From Planctomycetota bacterium (GTDB lineage Bacteria > Planctomycetota > Phycisphaerae > WQYP01), in the NCBI GenBank assembly GCA_021852275.1, contig JAJZNX010000138.1, forward strand, positions 1 through 51,951: a stretch of 51,951 nt of DNA, written 5' to 3'. The position numbers and the translations under genes were made by a program. The notes under the pieces are model-generated. The model searched no databases. It saw nothing but the letters and a program-made list of their open reading frames with translations, and had not been told where the DNA came from. Within the stretch, counting starts at the first letter, position 1; the number at the start of each line of letters is the position of its first letter. Shown here in pieces: positions 4,020 through 47,880 of this stretch.

Positions 4020-5780
4020 ATGCAGCAAAATATCCGCCGATGGTCCCTATCCCTGTGCGTCATCATTATCGGCACCGTGTTTACTGATCAGACGGTTCAT
4101 GCCCAGGCCTATCGGCGTATCGCACCCCAAAAGCCGGGGCCAGTTGCGCCAGGAAAAATTTTAACGCCGGCAACCCAGCAGCCTTCCGCCACCACCCAGT
4201 CGAATAAAGTGATTCTGCAAAAACTCCGTGGCCTGGTGTTTATAGATAATATCAAGGCCCTGGTCCGTACCGGCTACACCGGTGCGTTATCAGCCAACGG
4301 AATTGTGATGAAAAATCTGCCGCTGCTGAATCGCCCCCGGTTTATCAGCCAATTGACCCCAAGTATCGGCAAACCATTGACACTTTCCGACATTCAAAAC
4401 CTATCCAGGCTGGTAACGCAATGGTACATCCGCCACGGTCGTCCCCTGATGCAGGTAACGGTTCCCCCGCAGAATATCAGCTCCGGCATCGTTCAGGTGG
4501 TAGTAACCGTCTACAAAGTGGGGCGGGTGAATGTGACGGGCAACAAGTGGTTTTCCAGCCAACTGCTGCGGTTTGAAAGCGGCATTCAGACAGGTAAGCC
4601 CATTACGCTAAATTCCCTGCAGTCAGATTTGAACTGGCTCAACAGCAATCCATTCCGGCGGGTCAATGCGGTGTTCAGCCCCGGAGCCCAGGCTGGCGAG
4701 ACGGATGTGAACTTGCAAACACGCGATCAATTTCCCCTGCGGGTTTATAGCGGCTATGACAACGAGGGTGTGCCAAGCCTGGGCCGCAGCGAATACAACG
4801 TCGGTTTTAATTGGGGTAACGCCTTTGGATTGGACCAGCAGTTATCCTATCAGTTTACCCGCAGTTTCAGCGGCAACTATACGGCCCATTCGGTAGATTG
4901 GACTATTCCGCTGCCCTGGCGGGACCGGGTGATGATCTTTGGGTCTTATGAGCAGGAAAAGGTGGGTCTTAACTCGGCGTTTTCGTCTCTGGGTGAAAGC
5001 GGGCAGGCCAGCATTCGGTACCTGCATCCATTGCCGGCACCGAATTGGCTTAGCCAGTCTGTGGGTGTAGGTTACGATTTTAAGACCAGCAACAACAACC
5101 TGGAATTTGGCGGCACACAGGTGAGCAATGCCCAGAACAGCTTAAATCAGATGCTGTTTATTTATAATGCCGTGGAGACTGATCGCTTTGGCAGCACCGC
5201 TCTGAACAACCAGTTGGTGGCCAGTTTTGGGGCCTTTACCGGGATGAACAATTCCAATCCACCGCCCAATGAAGCGGGTTTGGCCTATCCGGCCAATTAC
5301 CTCTACGATCAGGTGGAACTCAAACGCATCACACGGTTGCCATGGGGGCTTTCTTCGGTAACCAGATTTGCAGGCCAAATTGCGGACCATAACCTGCCGG
5401 ACAGCGAACAATTGGATGCCGGCGGGGTAGGCAGTGTACGTGGTTACAATCCGGAGACTGCGTTAGGCAGTGAAGGGGAACTTATCAGTGAAGAAATTCT
5501 TAGCCCGGCGTTTGATCCGGCAGGTTTTTTACATCCCCCGGCACAGTGGCATTCAGCGGCCCAGTTAGGGGTATTTATTGATTATGCGGATGTGTATCAG
5601 GTGCAAAGGAGTGCCAGCGCCGGTGGGCGGGCTGATTTGGCCAGTGCCGGCGTAGAGATTACCTATAATCTAAGAAACAATCTTTCCATCGATATGGATT
5701 ATGGCCAGCAACTGCGTCGCGCCCCTGGTGCTACCAACAAAGGTGGAGAGTTTGATATTGCGGTGGTGGTGGGATTTTAG
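4020..5780 (+). CDS. TpsB/ShlB-FhaC-type outer-membrane exporter
   Basis: A 586-residue Omp85-superfamily pore of two-partner secretion, expected to export the upstream repetitive protein across the outer membrane. It has an N-terminal signal peptide (about residues 1-29, cleavage near VHAQA) and a proline-rich linker. A ShlB-type POTRA region follows (about 65-165), then a second POTRA with the VGRVNVTGNKWF strand (about 170-235). The rest is a 16-strand-type beta barrel. The VRGY motif of the L6 loop is present in GGVGSVRGYNPETA, and the protein ends in phenylalanine within a terminal beta strand, the usual Bam recognition signal. AAGGA at 4008-4012 lies 7 bases before the ATG. The start is 42 bp after the substrate gene and probably cotranscribed. 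Confidence 0.9.
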   Translation: MQQNIRRWSLSLCVIIIGTVFTDQTVHAQAYRRIAPQKPGPVAPGKILTPATQQPSATTQSNKVILQKLRGLVFIDNIKALVRTGYTGALSANGIVMKNLPLLNRPRFISQLTPSIGKPLTLSDIQNLSRLVTQWYIRHGRPLMQVTVPPQNISSGIVQVVVTVYKVGRVNVTGNKWFSSQLLRFESGIQTGKPITLNSLQSDLNWLNSNPFRRVNAVFSPGAQAGETDVNLQTRDQFPLRVYSGYDNEGVPSLGRSEYNVGFNWGNAFGLDQQLSYQFTRSFSGNYTAHSVDWTIPLPWRDRVMIFGSYEQEKVGLNSAFSSLGESGQASIRYLHPLPAPNWLSQSVGVGYDFKTSNNNLEFGGTQVSNAQNSLNQMLFIYNAVETDRFGSTALNNQLVASFGAFTGMNNSNPPPNEAGLAYPANYLYDQVELKRITRLPWGLSSVTRFAGQIADHNLPDSEQLDAGGVGSVRGYNPETALGSEGELISEEILSPAFDPAGFLHPPAQWHSAAQLGVFIDYADVYQVQRSASAGGRADLASAGVEITYNLRNNLSIDMDYGQQLRRAPGATNKGGEFDIAVVVGF

Positions 5781-41107: not shown

Positions 41108-41593
41108 CTAAACGGCAGGCAAACCCTGCACACGCCGCCAGGTGGAGAGTTGTCCGGCATGGTAACCCTCATGCCAGGTGCCATACATAAATATGGTATG
41201 GCCGATGGTGGGAAATCGCTCTCTTCGGGCAGGATCGGGATGAGGCTTGTCTAAATCCGCAGCGGTCAGTTTTGGCAACTGTTCCAAAATCTGCTTTCGC
41301 ACCTGAGCCATGTGCTCCAAGTACCAGGCCTTGGTTTTGTATTTGCTCCGGTCAGCCACGGGTGTGCTGCCACCCGCATAAATTTCCTTCCAATTGGCTT
41401 CCAGTTCTGGTGCTTTGCCGCCGATTAAAGTCAGAAAATTACAATCGACCATATATAAATGTCCCAAGACCCAAGCTGGATGATTGGTTTTCGGTGCCGG
41501 CTGCAAAACTAACTGGGCGTCCGTTAAATCGGCCACCAGCTTAAGTGTGGCGGAACGGGTCAGGTTGAGGGTGCCGATAAAGGCTTGGATCAT
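41108..41593 (-). CDS. DinB-superfamily protein
   Basis: A 161-residue four-helix-bundle protein of the DinB/YfiT family. The three metal-binding histidines are plausibly in WVLGHLYMVD (first) and GTWHEGYHAGQLSTWRR (second and third), the normal spacing for the family. Members include thiol S-transferases and many uncharacterised proteins; specificity cannot be inferred. A strong AAGGAG lies 7 bases before the ATG. It is 90 bp downstream of the E1-like gene on the same strand, so it could be the last member of that operon, though nothing in its sequence ties it to sulfur transfer. Confidence 0.85.
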   Translation of the reverse strand: MIQAFIGTLNLTRSATLKLVADLTDAQLVLQPAPKTNHPAWVLGHLYMVDCNFLTLIGGKAPELEANWKEIYAGGSTPVADRSKYKTKAWYLEHMAQVRKQILEQLPKLTAADLDKPHPDPARRERFPTIGHTIFMYGTWHEGYHAGQLSTWRRVQGLPAV

Positions 41594-41681: not shown

Positions 41682-42776
41682 TCAGGCACCTACATATTTA
41701 GCATAAACGGCTCGACCAATCGCAACATCGCTAGTCCCTTTTATAATAGCACGTCCGTCGGCAAAAACAGTTAAATCAAAATTCCGTGTCCGTTCGCCCT
41801 GGCCTTCACGGATGGAACACTTCAGCATGAACTTGTTGAACGTGGGGTTGCCCACAGTTCGCAAGCCACGGGAAATTTGCTCAAAATCGACTTTTCCCAC
41901 GGCCGGGTTATTGACCTGTACAGCGTTACGGCCACAGAGGGAGATTGTGGAACTGCTGAAGTCTCCGGTCAAGAATTCATATTTTTGATGCTTGCACACC
42001 GGGCAATCGGCAATTTCCCGGGCCTTGGAAATATTCAACTGCTGATAGCGGTTGTCCCACAGATCAAAACTGAACAAGGCTTTGCTTACTGCATCCATAT
42101 TGCCGGTCAGCATTTTGATGGCCTCCATGGCTTGCCAACTGGCCACCACATTAACCGTGGGGCCAAGTACCCCGGCGGTATCGCAGGTGGGGTTCATGCC
42201 CGGCGGCGGAGCACTTTCAAAGATGCAGCGCAAGCATGGCGTAATGCCGGGACGAACCACCATGGCCAAACCCATGGCACTGATGCACGCACCATAAATC
42301 CACGGAATGTTGAGCTTGGCTGAAACATCGTTGATTAAAAAGCGTGTTTCAAAATTATCTGTGCCGTCCAGCAGCAAATCCTGTCCTTGGGCAAACTGGA
42401 CGATATTTTTGAAATTAATATCGGAAACCACCGCATCCACCTGCACGGTGGAATTAATTTTGGCGATTTTTCGTTTGGCTGCTTCCGCTTTGGGCAATTG
42501 CTCGGCAATATCTGTTTCATCAAAGAGTACCTGCCGCTGCAAATTATTGATTTCAATAAAATCCCGATCGGCAATGGTCAAATGACCCACACCAGCCCGG
42601 GCTAATGTGTTAGCAAGCACGGTACCTAAGGCCCCACAGCCCACCATAAAAACGCGGGCTTGTTTGAGTTTTCTCTGCCCTTCCACGCCGATGGGTGCCC
42701 AAAGCATCTGCCGGTTGTAGCGGGCCAGCGTTGGATCGGCTTGTTCAAGTTGTTCAGCAAGTTCAGATAGCGCCAT
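41682..42776 (-). CDS. MoeB/ThiF/HcyF-type E1-like adenylyltransferase
   Basis: A 364-residue E1-like enzyme expected to adenylate the C-terminal Gly-Gly of the small sulfur carrier encoded in the same operon. The nucleotide site is MVGCGALGTVLANTLARAGVGHLTIADRDFIE with the NNLQRQVLF motif. LLDGTDNFETRFLINDVS follows, and zinc is bound by CLRC and CPVC. A candidate catalytic cysteine is in NPTCDTAGVLGPTVNVVASWQAMEAIKMLTG. A C-terminal domain of about 75 residues (from VNNPAVGKVDFEQ to YAKYVGA) replaces the rhodanese domain of MoeZ-type proteins. It starts 8 bp after the NIL-domain gene. The SAM riboswitch upstream of the operon points to homocysteine synthesis rather than molybdopterin or thiamin. 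Confidence 0.85.
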   Translation of the reverse strand: MALSELAEQLEQADPTLARYNRQMLWAPIGVEGQRKLKQARVFMVGCGALGTVLANTLARAGVGHLTIADRDFIEINNLQRQVLFDETDIAEQLPKAEAAKRKIAKINSTVQVDAVVSDINFKNIVQFAQGQDLLLDGTDNFETRFLINDVSAKLNIPWIYGACISAMGLAMVVRPGITPCLRCIFESAPPPGMNPTCDTAGVLGPTVNVVASWQAMEAIKMLTGNMDAVSKALFSFDLWDNRYQQLNISKAREIADCPVCKHQKYEFLTGDFSSSTISLCGRNAVQVNNPAVGKVDFEQISRGLRTVGNPTFNKFMLKCSIREGQGERTRNFDLTVFADGRAIIKGTSDVAIGRAVYAKYVGA

Positions 42777-42784
42777 ATTTCAGT

Positions 42785-43048
42785 TTATCCTTCGACTACA
42801 CTTTTTTCAATGGGTTCTACGGTTACGCCCTGTTCCTGTAAAAAGGCCATGGCTGCCTGCACCTGCGGCTGCGGGCCTTCCAGAAGCACGGCCATGATGC
42901 CGATTTCCGCAGTCACGCTGGCCTGGCGGATATCAAAACTCACATCTGGAAATTTGCGGGCCATGCGCCAGAGTGCAGGCGTTTCCACCATGCGGCGGGA
43001 GCCAAAGGTAAGCCAAACTCTTTTCTTTATTGTTTCACCAGTCGTCAT
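42785..43048 (-). CDS. NIL-domain protein
   Basis: An 87-residue protein that is essentially one NIL domain (KRVWLTFGSRRMVETPALWRMARKFPDVSFDIRQASVTAEIGIMAVLLEGPQPQVQAAMAFLQEQGVTVEPIE). This is an ACT-like fold found at the C-terminus of the methionine transporter ATPase MetN and fused to ferredoxin in some methionine-synthesis proteins. The ATG at 43048 follows the sulfur-carrier stop by 2 bases and has GGGAGG 6 bases upstream. In MetN the domain senses methionine, so here it may sense methionine or bind the carrier. The precise role is inferred. Confidence 0.85.
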   Translation of the reverse strand: MTTGETIKKRVWLTFGSRRMVETPALWRMARKFPDVSFDIRQASVTAEIGIMAVLLEGPQPQVQAAMAFLQEQGVTVEPIEKSVVEG

Positions 43049-43050
43049 CT

Positions 43051-43326
43051 TCAACCTCCCGCAATTGCAGGTACCACACTGACATCATCACCAGGTTTGA
43101 TTTTGGTGTGTAAATTATCCAGAAAGCGGATATCCTCTTCGTTGACATAAATGTTCACGAATCGGTTGAGTTCGCCGGGCTGCTTGAAAAGGCGTTTTTC
43201 CATGCCTTCAAACTTGGCGCACAGCGCCAAAAGCAGCTCGTTCACATCGCTGCCATCTACTTCCACAGATTCCGCGCCACTGGTGATTTGACGCAAAGGG
43301 GTGGGAATTCTGATTTTTACTGCCAT
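43051..43326 (-). CDS. ThiS/MoaD-type sulfur carrier protein
   Basis: A 91-residue ubiquitin-like protein ending in the diglycine needed for thiocarboxylation (VSVVPAIAGG). The beta-grasp pattern is complete: VKIRIPTPLRQITSGAESVEVDG, VNELLLALCAKFEGMEKRLF, VNIYVNEEDIRFL and IKPGDDVSVVPAIAGG. The length and the RPxxL-free loop resemble CysO/HcyS-like carriers rather than the shorter ThiS. AGGAGA lies 8 bases before the ATG. It is the second gene of the riboswitch-controlled operon, 42 bp after the threonine-synthase-like gene. Confidence 0.9.
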   Translation of the reverse strand: MAVKIRIPTPLRQITSGAESVEVDGSDVNELLLALCAKFEGMEKRLFKQPGELNRFVNIYVNEEDIRFLDNLHTKIKPGDDVSVVPAIAGG

Positions 43327-43368
43327 ACGTATAATCTCCTGTTACAGGTATTCTCAGAGTGCCGGGTT

Positions 43369-44640
43369 TCAGGTCGTCAGCGGCTCTAATTCACGCGTGC
43401 CGCCGGTATTGTCCAATTCTGCAATAAAAGCATCAAATGCTTCAAGTTTTGGAGGAATAGACGTGGGCATGGCCAATTGATCTGCGACCACTTCGGTGGT
43501 CTTCAGGCCGTTGCCCGTAATGCACACACAAATACTTTCGTCGCGCGGAATGCGGCCGGATTCAATGAGTTTAATAGTCGCGGCCAGCGTGGTCCCGCCG
43601 GCGGGTTCGGTCCATATTCCTTCTGCTCTGGCCAGCAGCTTGATGGCATCAATAATTTCCGGGTCGGTGGCATCCATGGCCCAGCCGCCGCTTTGTCGTA
43701 CCGCCTGCACTACGTAAAATCCATCCGCGGGGTTGCCGATGGCAATACTCTTGGCGATGGTTTTAGGTTTCTGTGGCTTAATTAAATCTCGTCCGGCGCG
43801 TATGGCCTCCACCACCGGATTACAGCCCGCGGCCTGCGCAGAATAAATTTTAGGGGCGGTATTTTCGACCAGGCCCAGGTCAATAAGTTCCTGATAAGCC
43901 TTATGAATTTTGGGTAAAATTGTACCGCCCGCAGTGGGGCACACCGTGTGTTGGGGAAATTTCCATCCCAGTTGTTCGGCAATTTCATAACCGAAAGTTT
44001 TAGCCCCTTCCGTGTAAAACGGGCGCAAGTTCACATTCACAATGGCCCATTTGTATTTGTCGGCAATTTCGGAGCACAGACGGTTCACATCATCATAATT
44101 ACCCTGAATCCGGACCATGGTTGGGCCGAAAATAAGCGAGCCTAACACTTTGCCCTGTTCCAGATCATGGGGAATCATCACAAATGCTTTCATCCCTGCC
44201 ACCGCGGCATGGGCCGCCACACTGTTGGCAAGGTTGCCCGTGCTGGCACAACCGACGGTGTGATAGCCGAGTTCAAGTGCTTTGGTAATGGCGACGGATA
44301 CGACGCGCTCTTTGTAGCTCCAGGTGGGGTAGTTGGCGGAATCGTCCTTGATGTAAAGCTCACGGACGTTCAGAATTTTTTCCAGATGATGCGCCCGCCG
44401 CAAAGGCGTATAGCCGGAATAAAGCCCGGCCCGCGGCTCGCCGTTAATCGGCAACAGATCGCGATAGCGCCACAAGCTGCGCGGTCCGCGTTCAATGGAT
44501 TCCCGTGTAACTTTGCCCTTCATCCGCGTGTAATCATATTGCACTTCCAGCGGCCCGAAACAGACTTCGCAGACGTGCACACCTTTTTGCGGATATTCTT
44601 TGCCACATTCGCGGCACCGAAGACCAATGATATAAGCCAT
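43369..44640 (-). CDS. Threonine-synthase-like PLP enzyme (candidate homocysteine synthase)
   Basis: A 423-residue fold-type II PLP enzyme. It begins with a zinc ribbon (Cys9, Cys12, Cys24, Cys27), as in many threonine synthases. The PLP lysine is Lys110 in NYPTWSYKERVVSVAI; classic ThrC has SFKDR here. The phosphate-binding loop is GCASTGNLANSVAAHAA, and ITGNGLKTTE is near the C-terminus. By homology it uses O-phosphohomoserine and would normally make threonine. It is the first gene of an operon with a thiocarboxylate carrier, a NIL protein and an E1-like enzyme, all behind a SAM riboswitch. Homocysteine formation from O-phosphohomoserine and carrier-bound sulfide is therefore a reasonable alternative. 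The ATG at 44640 has GGAG 7 bases upstream. Confidence 0.88.
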   Translation of the reverse strand: MAYIIGLRCRECGKEYPQKGVHVCEVCFGPLEVQYDYTRMKGKVTRESIERGPRSLWRYRDLLPINGEPRAGLYSGYTPLRRAHHLEKILNVRELYIKDDSANYPTWSYKERVVSVAITKALELGYHTVGCASTGNLANSVAAHAAVAGMKAFVMIPHDLEQGKVLGSLIFGPTMVRIQGNYDDVNRLCSEIADKYKWAIVNVNLRPFYTEGAKTFGYEIAEQLGWKFPQHTVCPTAGGTILPKIHKAYQELIDLGLVENTAPKIYSAQAAGCNPVVEAIRAGRDLIKPQKPKTIAKSIAIGNPADGFYVVQAVRQSGGWAMDATDPEIIDAIKLLARAEGIWTEPAGGTTLAATIKLIESGRIPRDESICVCITGNGLKTTEVVADQLAMPTSIPPKLEAFDAFIAELDNTGGTRELEPLTT

Positions 44641-44735
44641 GAAAAAACTCCAACCAAGGCCCGGGGCAAGGCAGTCCCCTGGCATCCATCGGCCCGATTA
44701 TCCGGCGGACTTTTTGCCGGTGCAAAAACGAATAC

Positions 44736-44794
44736 GGCCTCTTATCGGGAATGGCCACCGCATGTGTTTGGATGCCGATTCCTGATAAGAGGCC
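44736..44794 (-). promoter_or_regulatory. Leader hairpin, candidate expression platform
   Basis: GGCCTCTTATC (44736-44746) and GATAAGAGGCC (44784-44794) form a perfect 11-bp stem that extends with one mismatch through GGAAT. On the minus strand it comes after the SAM aptamer. Its CUUAUC/GAUAAG segments are the same as those of aptamer helix P1, so alternative pairing is possible. A UUUUU run lies 7 bases after the stem. Confidence 0.55.
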
Positions 44795-44849
44795 GCTTTC
44801 AACTTGCCGCGGATATTTTTAATGGTTTTTAATCCGGTGTAAAGCTGCT

Positions 44850-45000
44850 TCACTTATCTATCCCCAGATTCGCCCCGGTTTTCACCGAATGCGAGCGGGA
44901 GGGAATTAGCACCCGCTTCCGGCGGCTTGTACATTCGCCGCCCGGATGGGTTGCTGTGCCTTCGACGGGCCCGTCCCTCAGGCACTCTTGATAAGATCCG
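44850..45000 (-). promoter_or_regulatory. SAM-I (S-box) riboswitch
   Basis: On the minus strand, P1 is CUUAUC (44995-44990) with GAUAAG (44858-44853). AAGAG follows, then P2 GUGCC/GGCAC enclosing GAGGGACGGGCCCGUCGAAG, then the conserved AGCAACC. A strong P3 hairpin (CCGGGCGGC / GCCGCCGG) leads to the invariant GGUGCUAAUUCC at 44913-44902, and P4 carries CGGU-GAAA-ACCG. These are the core elements of the SAM-I family in the right order and spacing. The aptamer ends about 210 bases before the threonine-synthase-like ATG. It should reduce expression of the four-gene operon when SAM is plentiful. Confidence 0.93.
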
Positions 45001-45122: not shown

Positions 45123-45602
45123 ATGGCTACCCTGCATGAAAAACCTATGACCGCGCGTGGACGCGATACACCTTGTGTGCGACAGGTCTCGGTGTTTGTT
45201 GAAAACCGCGTAGGAATGTTGGCTACACTGGTAGGCATCTTTGAAGATACAGATATCCAGGTGCATGCTTTGACGGTCCTGCAAGGCTTTGATTGCGCTA
45301 TTGTCCGTTTTGTTTTTAACGATACTGATACAGCATCGCGCATTTTACGAGAATCTAATTACCACTATTCCGTTTGCGAACTGGTAGCGGTGGAAATGCC
45401 GGCCACCCATTCCGGTAATGGGCTTGGCAGTATAGGCAAAGCACTGCTTAGTGCGGAAATCGACATTCATTATGTTTATGGACTGATATCCACCCCTCAT
45501 GGGCGAGCGGCCGTCGTTATTCATGTGGATAATCCGGAATCCGCCAGCCGGGTACTGGAGGAAAAGAATTTTGTGTTGTTGGATGAAACTGATTTGCGGT
45601 AG
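45123..45602 (+). CDS. Tandem ACT-domain protein
   Basis: A 159-residue protein of two ACT domains: VRQVSVFVENRVGMLATLVGIFEDTDIQVHALTVLQGFDCAIVRFVF and a second from about residue 85 (LVAVEMPATHSGNGLGSIGKALLSAEIDIHYVYGLIS). ACT domains bind amino acids and regulate their synthesis. No catalytic domain is attached, so this is a stand-alone sensor or regulatory subunit, similar in outline to small subunits of acetolactate synthase. It is divergent from the riboswitch-controlled operon with about 120 bp between the aptamer and its start; whether the two are linked is unknown. Confidence 0.82.
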   Translation: MATLHEKPMTARGRDTPCVRQVSVFVENRVGMLATLVGIFEDTDIQVHALTVLQGFDCAIVRFVFNDTDTASRILRESNYHYSVCELVAVEMPATHSGNGLGSIGKALLSAEIDIHYVYGLISTPHGRAAVVIHVDNPESASRVLEEKNFVLLDETDLR

Positions 45603-47761: not shown

Positions 47762-47858
47762 GGTCGGGCCCGATGCACGGGTCAACTGTGAAACTGGTCA
47801 GGTCCGGAAGGAAGCAGCCATAAGCATGCTTTGGTCCGGTGCCGTCGGTAGCCCGACC
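47762..47858 (+). ncRNA. ffs: Small bacterial signal recognition particle RNA (4.5S type)
   Basis: About 97 bases. The terminal helix is GGTCGGGC (47762-47769) with GCCCGACC (47851-47858). The apical domain contains the nearly invariant Ffh-binding sequence GGTCAGGTCCGGAAGGAAGC, with the GGAA tetraloop and AGCAGCC symmetric loop side. There is no Alu domain, so it is the short form. A possible promoter (TTGTGG at 47719, TTATGT at 47743) lies just upstream. The 3' end is 22 bp from the stop of a convergent hydrolase gene. Confidence 0.95.
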
Positions 47859-47880
47859 TTGGACGGAGCGTACCTTCTGG

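Follow-up and report, generated by a model that had tools for sequence, protein, structure and literature searches.

A threonine-synthase-like gene that stands behind a riboswitch for S-adenosylmethionine (SAM) raises the question of which amino acid its product helps to make. Such a gene lies on contig JAJZNX010000138.1 (GenBank assembly GCA_021852275.1) of a Planctomycetota bacterium (Phycisphaerae, WQYP01); the whole stretch of DNA analyzed, 51,951 nucleotides, is called the window. The gene opens a minus-strand unit of five genes behind a SAM-I aptamer, encoding a pyridoxal phosphate (PLP) enzyme, a sulfur carrier, a NIL-domain protein, an E1-like activating enzyme, and a DinB-family protein. 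Judging from sequence comparison, the locus is in all likelihood an operon for homocysteine synthesis of the MetM/MetO kind, repressed by SAM.

MetM was presented by Hasebe et al. 2024 (doi 10.1128/aem.01247-24, via the accessible text of PMC12172450) as a homocysteine synthase of Streptomyces that resembles threonine synthase (ThrC) and has cyanobacterial homologs. According to the same text, it converts O-phospho-L-homoserine to homocysteine, and metM of Streptomyces albulus has a SAM riboswitch upstream and a partner carrier gene, metO (PMC12172450). A first-pass annotation of the window had arrived at a similar route, in which a ThrC-fold enzyme takes O-phosphohomoserine and a carrier thiocarboxylate to homocysteine. 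Comparison and precedent support this route, which is very probably right here; since the Streptomyces system is already published, the chemistry is not new. That precedent and the likely role of the NIL protein had both been missed.

The SAM-I riboswitch

The SAM-I (S-box) aptamer that the first-pass annotation had recognized in the leader is borne out by a covariance-model scan. RF00162 matches positions 44997-44851 of the minus strand over its full length (model 1-108) with 64.4 bits (gathering cutoff 44.4, E 9.2e-13), and this is its only match in the window's own genome. The leader holds a further element that had been overlooked, a terminator-like hairpin (44800-44730) followed by a U run (44728-44724), which together form the putative expression platform (44724-44800, minus strand). 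The platform (44805-44705) folds with -45.2 kcal/mol (z -6.85), and none of 200 shuffled sequences reached an equally low value; a simple consensus terminator scan with a loop limit of 8 nucleotides did not list the hairpin.

The 5' arm of the hairpin holds CTTATC (44789-44784), which is complementary to GATAAG (44858-44853) in the 3' strand of P1. Since the arm repeats the CTTATC of P1, the P1 3' strand has a second possible partner in it, and this pairing can act as an antiterminator. From the aptamer, the hairpin, and the complementary strands, we infer a transcriptional OFF switch. At low SAM, the P1 3' strand would pair with the hairpin arm, no terminator would form, and the genes would be transcribed; at high SAM, P1 would be kept and transcription would stop. 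A crude scan of 20 family loci picked up a hairpin with CTTATC in its 5' arm, followed by a T run, in 15 of them, and no such element in L003, L013, L014, L015, and L017.

The aptamer recurs upstream of MetM in 17 of the 19 loci L003-L021, in Nonomuraea (L062), and in 15 of 20 further loci. Among named loci it precedes MetM or an E1-MetM unit in nine of 27, the E1-MetM unit being the one that it heads in two of these (L067 and L071). These samples overlap slightly, as L025 and L064 are apparently the same contig and L034 and L069 the same genome.

The PLP enzyme groups with MetM

The first gene (43369-44640, minus strand) encodes a predicted MetM-type homocysteine synthase of 423 residues (PF00291, 220 bits), assigned by its position in a tree. 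The listed open reading frame begins at 44685; the preferred start is the ATG at 44640, which is preceded by GGAG. The protein has a threonine-synthase-like fold of type II with an N-terminal Cys4 ribbon, and its best structural match is T. thermophilus ThrC (PDB ID: 1uim, E 7e-56). It scores 296.4 bits against PRK08197, just under the cutoff of 303, and shares 50% identity with the MetM-like protein of Nonomuraea and 55% with that of Dolichospermum (L139).

A quick maximum-likelihood tree was built from 165 proteins. In it, 133 MetM-like rows (profile score at least 480 bits), including the window's enzyme (L152), eight cyanobacteria, Aquificae, and Nonomuraea, lie on one side of a branch with a Shimodaira-Hasegawa-like approximate likelihood ratio support of 100; the canonical ThrC of the window's own genome (L153) falls on the opposite side. 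The tree flags long branches, that of Nonomuraea included.

The two groups are also distinguished by a short residue signature, as seen when the 133 MetM-clade rows are compared with 18 canonical ThrC rows. Ser155, Asn157, and Arg160 (T. thermophilus numbering) are present in 18/18 ThrC rows, whereas the MetM clade has Asn, Arg, and Tyr at these positions in 132, 133, and 133 rows, respectively (N204, R206, and Y209 in the window). Going by ThrC structures, Ser155 and Arg160 presumably bind the substrate phosphate. The signature of the clade comprises the changes from FKDRGM to FKDRVV and from S155-x-N157-x-x-R160 to N204-x-R206-x-x-Y209.

Threonine synthesis seems to be served by other genes. 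The window's own genome encodes a canonical threonine synthase elsewhere, at G000:C32 (an additional piece lies at C64), and a separate ThrC-type match was found in 26 of 27 MetM-bearing relatives, with none listed for G025.

Apparent replacement of the usual homocysteine genes

The gene content of relatives was compared in 61 genomes; the window's own (G000) is a metagenome-assembled genome (MAG), 82% complete. A MetM-type gene (at least 72% identity, whole or cut at a contig end) occurs in 27 of them. A strong match to PF01053, the MetB/MetC/MetY/MetZ family (E 1e-20 or better here and in the named genomes below), is found in 1/27 relatives with MetM vs 31/34 without it (Fisher p 7e-13, with a second value of 5e-8 for the set of relatives; all Fisher values on gene distribution ignore kinship). 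The contrast persists in genomes at least 90% complete (1/18 vs 26/27). MetX or MetA shows the same tendency (1/27 vs 24/34), with MetA absent from all 27; E 1e-20 was used for MetX because the 500-bit cutoff of TIGR01392 was reached by none of the 61 relatives and none of 14 control genomes. The sole MetM-bearing relative with a strong PF01053 match, G041, also has MetX. Tabulating the co-occurrence, as the first-pass annotation had suggested, leaves 26 of the 27 MetM-bearing relatives without strong PF01053, MetX, and MetA.

The window's own genome contains no MetX, MetA, or DUF39 and no full-length PF01053 protein; its best PF01053 match is partial (33.2 bits, profile 58-179 of 381). A conventional homocysteine pathway combined with this gene as the only threonine synthase, which would have spoken against the earlier proposal, was not found in G000, and the canonical ThrC is encoded at C32. 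A MetH-type S-methyltransferase is present (1217-residue frame), so that homocysteine has a consumer.

The clearest independent contrast is offered by G012, the only member of the window's family of 28 with strong PF01053 and MetA. It has no MetM, and its MetA and PF01053 enzyme are encoded side by side on one contig (G012:C203:3576-5833), which makes it a natural pathway swap. The operon apparently stands in for MetX/MetA and MetB/MetY in the window's lineage. A side observation concerns copy number: G019 (91% complete) carries two MetM-type copies (C91:17839-19065 and C30:958-2196), 83% and 81% identical to that of the window.

Beyond the class the pattern is a trend and no exclusion. MetM-clade genes (at least 49% identity) were found in 49 genomes of a phylum-wide sample of 294, and PF01053 (here at E 1e-50 or better) is missing from 15/49 genomes with MetM vs 15/245 without it (p 7e-6). 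In a further set of 80 named loci, PF01053 was checked in 50 author-chosen MetM genomes (50/80 loci), 31 of which lack it, including three Aquificae. These MAGs carry MetM-clade genes at L117 (Hydrogenobacter), L120 (called Aquifex aeolicus), and L131 (Aquificaceae); a carrier was found in G378 and G387, and none in the 1.3-Mb Aquificae MAG G380. Aquifex aeolicus is named among organisms without a known homocysteine route in the accessible part of Price et al. 2018 (PMC5764234). In plasmid searches for clade members, Nonomuraea was the sole MetM-clade match among the best 30 of 102 and the best 25 of 71 matches.

Operon partners and the proposed route

The second gene (43051-43326, minus strand) encodes a MetO-type ThiS/MoaD sulfur carrier of 91 residues with a free C-terminal PAIAGG (PF02597, 54 bits), 41% identical over 91 residues to the Nonomuraea MetO-like protein. 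It is the only match to its profile (A3) in the window's own genome at E 0.001. A carrier is present in 17 of 18 MetM genomes tested, including 11 of 12 without a visible carrier beside MetM. The fourth gene (41682-42776, minus strand) encodes a MoeB/ThiF-type E1 of 364 residues (PF00899, 250 bits), the proposed MetO adenylyltransferase; its best NCBIfam model is PRK12475 (MoeB/ThiF family) with 364.6 bits, under the 510-bit cutoff.

In the Streptomyces study of Hasebe and colleagues, thiocarboxylated MetO is reportedly the sulfur donor. By analogy with their families, the E1 of the window would adenylate the Gly-Gly tail of the carrier, and a cellular persulfide donor would convert the tail to a thiocarboxylate. 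The MetM-type enzyme would form a PLP-vinylglycine intermediate from O-phosphohomoserine, as in threonine synthase, and the carrier sulfur would be added at C-gamma, as the Streptomyces precedent suggests, giving homocysteine and not threonine. Homocysteine would then be methylated by MetH to methionine, and the NIL protein may sense methionine and adjust the complex.

The PLP enzyme, carrier, NIL, and E1 genes are separated by only 42, 2, and 8 nucleotides, in agreement with the tightly packed unit described at first pass; that description stopped at E1 and omitted the DinB-family gene, which follows after 88 nucleotides. Among the 26 loci with a MetM-type gene in L003-L028, several of which are truncated at the end of a contig or locus, the same strand holds a carrier within 2 kb in 21, NIL in 19, and E1 in 18. 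The 80 named loci contain a carrier (66), NIL (40), E1 (25), canonical ThrC (10), JAB (10), and a phosphoglycerate-mutase-like gene (5). NIL and E1 are frequent yet dispensable beside MetM, which fits a regulator in the case of NIL and, for E1, an activity that could come from housekeeping MoeB/MoeZ instead.

The named loci with ThrC are ten Nitrospirota loci (L091, L092, L095, L098, L100, L101, L103, L119, L126, and L128), in which MetM, MetO, and NIL are grouped with canonical ThrC, so that both users of O-phosphohomoserine are encoded together. A phosphoglycerate-mutase-like gene lies near ThrC in L092, L100, L101, and L119, and L098 has a cut match farther away. These proteins are candidate homoserine kinases only; the role of a phosphoglycerate-mutase-like protein as homoserine kinase is called uncertain in the accessible text of PMC7311316.

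Alternative explanations and related systems

Several points weigh against a MetM/MetO operon that has taken the place of the usual genes. The PLP enzyme passes the threonine-synthase cutoff of TIGR00260 (264.5 vs 167.1 bits). Its link to Streptomyces MetM goes by way of the cyanobacterial rows and the long-branched Nonomuraea protein in the tree, and a Microcystis MetM homolog (51.6% identical), whose carrier gene is compared with metO, is described in the accessible text of PMC12172450 as mainly a threonine synthase that is also a deaminase. The window's own MAG is only 82% complete, and its weak partial PF01053 matches exceed the Pfam cutoff of 27 bits; at E 0.001, each of the 61 relatives has weaker PF01053 matches (59 have one above that cutoff), and the weak ones are read here as other PLP enzymes. 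Three relatives have neither MetM nor strong PF01053, namely G011, which is 93% complete, G022 (76%), and G027 (67%). Independent contrasts for the exclusion of PF01053 by MetM are few, and PF01053 proteins accompany MetM in 34 of 49 genomes of the phylum-wide sample and in 19 of the 50 named genomes. The last counterpoint is weak, since the PF01053 family includes lyases.

The TIGR00260 score and the Microcystis activities would suit an enzyme that either duplicates threonine synthase or makes both threonine and homocysteine, with the carrier genes serving another pathway. This is very unlikely: the Ser/Asn/Arg set of ThrC is replaced, nearly all MetM-bearing relatives have a separate ThrC-type match, and SAM-I control, carrier linkage, and the absence of MetB/Y/X genes point to sulfur. 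As the only or second threonine synthase the enzyme was also rejected on the grounds that a separate ThrC exists in the genome and falls outside the MetM clade. On the evidence overall, it is probably not the threonine synthase of this genome despite passing TIGR00260.

A carrier-dependent cysteine synthase acting on O-phosphoserine is a still more improbable explanation. In the CysO-CysM system, a ThiS/MoaD carrier with a Gly-Gly end feeds CysM, a fold type II PLP enzyme, and the product is cysteine; cysteate synthase, a relative of ThrC, uses O-phosphoserine. The window shares the fold type and the carrier with CysO-CysM, but its enzyme belongs to the ThrC family and scores 68 bits against the cysteate synthase model (cutoff 325). 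Cysteine synthases (TIGR01136 at E 1e-60 or better) are moreover encoded by other genes in 58 of 61 relatives, two of them in the window's own genome, for which cysteine synthesis by the operon was rejected; SAM-I control suggests methionine, and the missing genes are those of homocysteine.

Equally hard to credit is a homocysteine synthase fed by free sulfide or by a NIL-linked relay with the carrier secondary, for which the adjacency of the NIL gene to MetO and the need for NIL/ferredoxin proteins with DUF39 for homocysteine in Desulfovibrio (accessible text of PMC5764234) might speak, since Pfam finds only the NIL domain above cutoff in the 87-residue protein, DUF39 is absent from the relatives, and a carrier accompanies MetM in nearly all genomes tested whereas NIL lies near it in half of the named loci. 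The DUF39 route, with NIL/ferredoxin and COG2122, bypasses homoserine (PMC5764234, same text). It resembles the window in having a NIL domain in homocysteine synthesis, as proposed here, and differs in that O-phosphohomoserine is the proposed substrate of the window's enzyme. The route was rejected, as PF01837 (DUF39) was found in 0/61 relatives and in three of 14 control genomes.

Among carrier-fed systems, the HcyS/HcyF-MetY route of Wolinella, in which a carrier thiocarboxylate feeds homocysteine synthesis by the PF01053 enzyme MetY, is similar in principle to the route proposed for the window. The accessible text of PMC5764234 cites a "protein thiocarboxylate pathway" as its reference 34. 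Unlike Wolinella, the window's own genome has no strong PF01053 match, and the MetY route was rejected because the best match there is the partial one given above. Streptomyces MetM/MetO shares with the window a ThrC-like enzyme and a carrier under a SAM riboswitch; in Nonomuraea gerenzanensis (L062), the SAM-I aptamer (4822-4963) is followed by a MetM-like gene and a MetO-like gene whose product ends in PAVAGG, with no E1 or NIL match in the 11.2-kb locus. The window differs from the Streptomyces type in that E1, NIL, and DinB-family genes form one unit with MetM/MetO.

The NIL protein and carrier fusions

The third gene (42785-43048, minus strand) encodes a stand-alone NIL-domain protein of 87 residues (PF09383, 43.3 vs 24 bits), the proposed methionine sensor of the MetM/MetO operon. 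Its profile (A4) matches the C2 domain of E. coli MetN (PDB ID: 3dhx, E 2.2e-8). The column of MetN Asn295 contains Asn in 41, Asp in 24 (among them the window), and Ser in 3 of 68 NIL sequences, i.e., Asn or Asp in 65; all 24 sequences with Asp come from loci that belong to the window's class or carry a Phycisphaer- name. Two residues past this column, all 68 have Arg, where E. coli MetN has Ile. In contrast to MetN, NIL proteins of the window's type are stand-alone or fused to MetO, with no ABC ATPase. As excerpted in the accessible part of PMC12357092, N295A MetNI shows no L-methionine binding at the C2 domain and a 28-fold increase in Ki for L-methionine.

Because of the MetN C2 match, the kept Asn295 position, and the N295A effect, the NIL protein probably senses methionine, as a working hypothesis. 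Its role as the methionine-sensing subunit of the MetM/MetO synthase, adding feedback at the protein level to that of the SAM riboswitch, is suggested by the fold and ligand position that MetN uses to stop methionine import and is put forward tentatively, with the balance of probability somewhat against it; in fused forms, Gly-Gly release may couple sensing to sulfur supply.

Such fusions of carrier and NIL with an internal Gly-Gly (AIAGG or AVAGG) were found in nine frames (L051, L052, L053, L056, L057, L080, L081, L083, and L085), hosted by Planctomycetota genomes and by Omnitrophota, Deltaproteobacteria, and Syntrophaceae MAGs. AlphaFold models the L083 fusion (mean pLDDT 87.1, pTM 0.52) as two well-predicted domains with IAGGA (88-92), at pLDDT below 50, between them. 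Cutting would be needed to expose the tail of a fused carrier; the carrier of the window needs none, as its own C-terminus ends in Gly-Gly. Among the named loci, a JAB gene accompanies 8 of 33 carriers with residues after Gly-Gly or a NIL fusion vs 1 of 28 with a free Gly-Gly (Fisher p 0.03) and 2 of 7 unclassed ones; three of the four fused carriers share their locus with a Prok-JAB gene. In L092 and L085, the JAB assignment is backed by Pfam. The association of JAB with carriers lacking a free Gly-Gly end is suggestive only.

Neighboring genes

The fifth gene (41108-41593, minus strand) encodes a DinB-family (DinB_2) protein (PF12867, 70 bits; PF04978 mycothiol-S-transferase, 30 bits). Its conserved His residues lie in NHPAW..GHL and WHE.YH.GQ, and it resembles thiol S-transferases and is possibly one itself. 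A DinB-family gene is next downstream of E1 on the same strand in all eight family loci read (L173-L180), and homologs stand behind E1 also in L065 and L069. Divergent from the operon and adjoining the riboswitch promoter region, a plus-strand gene (45123-45602) encodes a protein with a pair of ACT domains (PF19571); it is present in L002-L006, which belong to the same genus, and absent from the 1.5-kb flanks of the other loci compared. A small bacterial signal recognition particle RNA (74.9 bits) lies at 47762-47861 on the plus strand.

Implications for methionine synthesis

A literature check in one open-licence collection returned PMC12172450 alone on MetM (the word is absent from PMC13257386), and no NIL partner of MetM was recognized there. 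By this check, the novelty seems to lie in the five-gene arrangement of planctomycetes, the association with NIL and its fusion to the carrier, the layout of the switch, the residues that mark the clade, and how far the replacement goes.

The operon would extend the MetM/MetO route of 2024 from Streptomyces to planctomycetes and, judging from the named loci, to numerous further phyla. The stand-alone or carrier-fused NIL domain is a candidate new partner of this route, as a methionine sensor. Genes annotated as threonine synthase may in part be homocysteine synthases, which the short residue signature separates. The route possibly explains methionine synthesis in lineages without MetB/MetY/MetX, including the three Aquificae MAGs; as a corollary, the MetM clade is a candidate for the homocysteine step missing in Aquifex.

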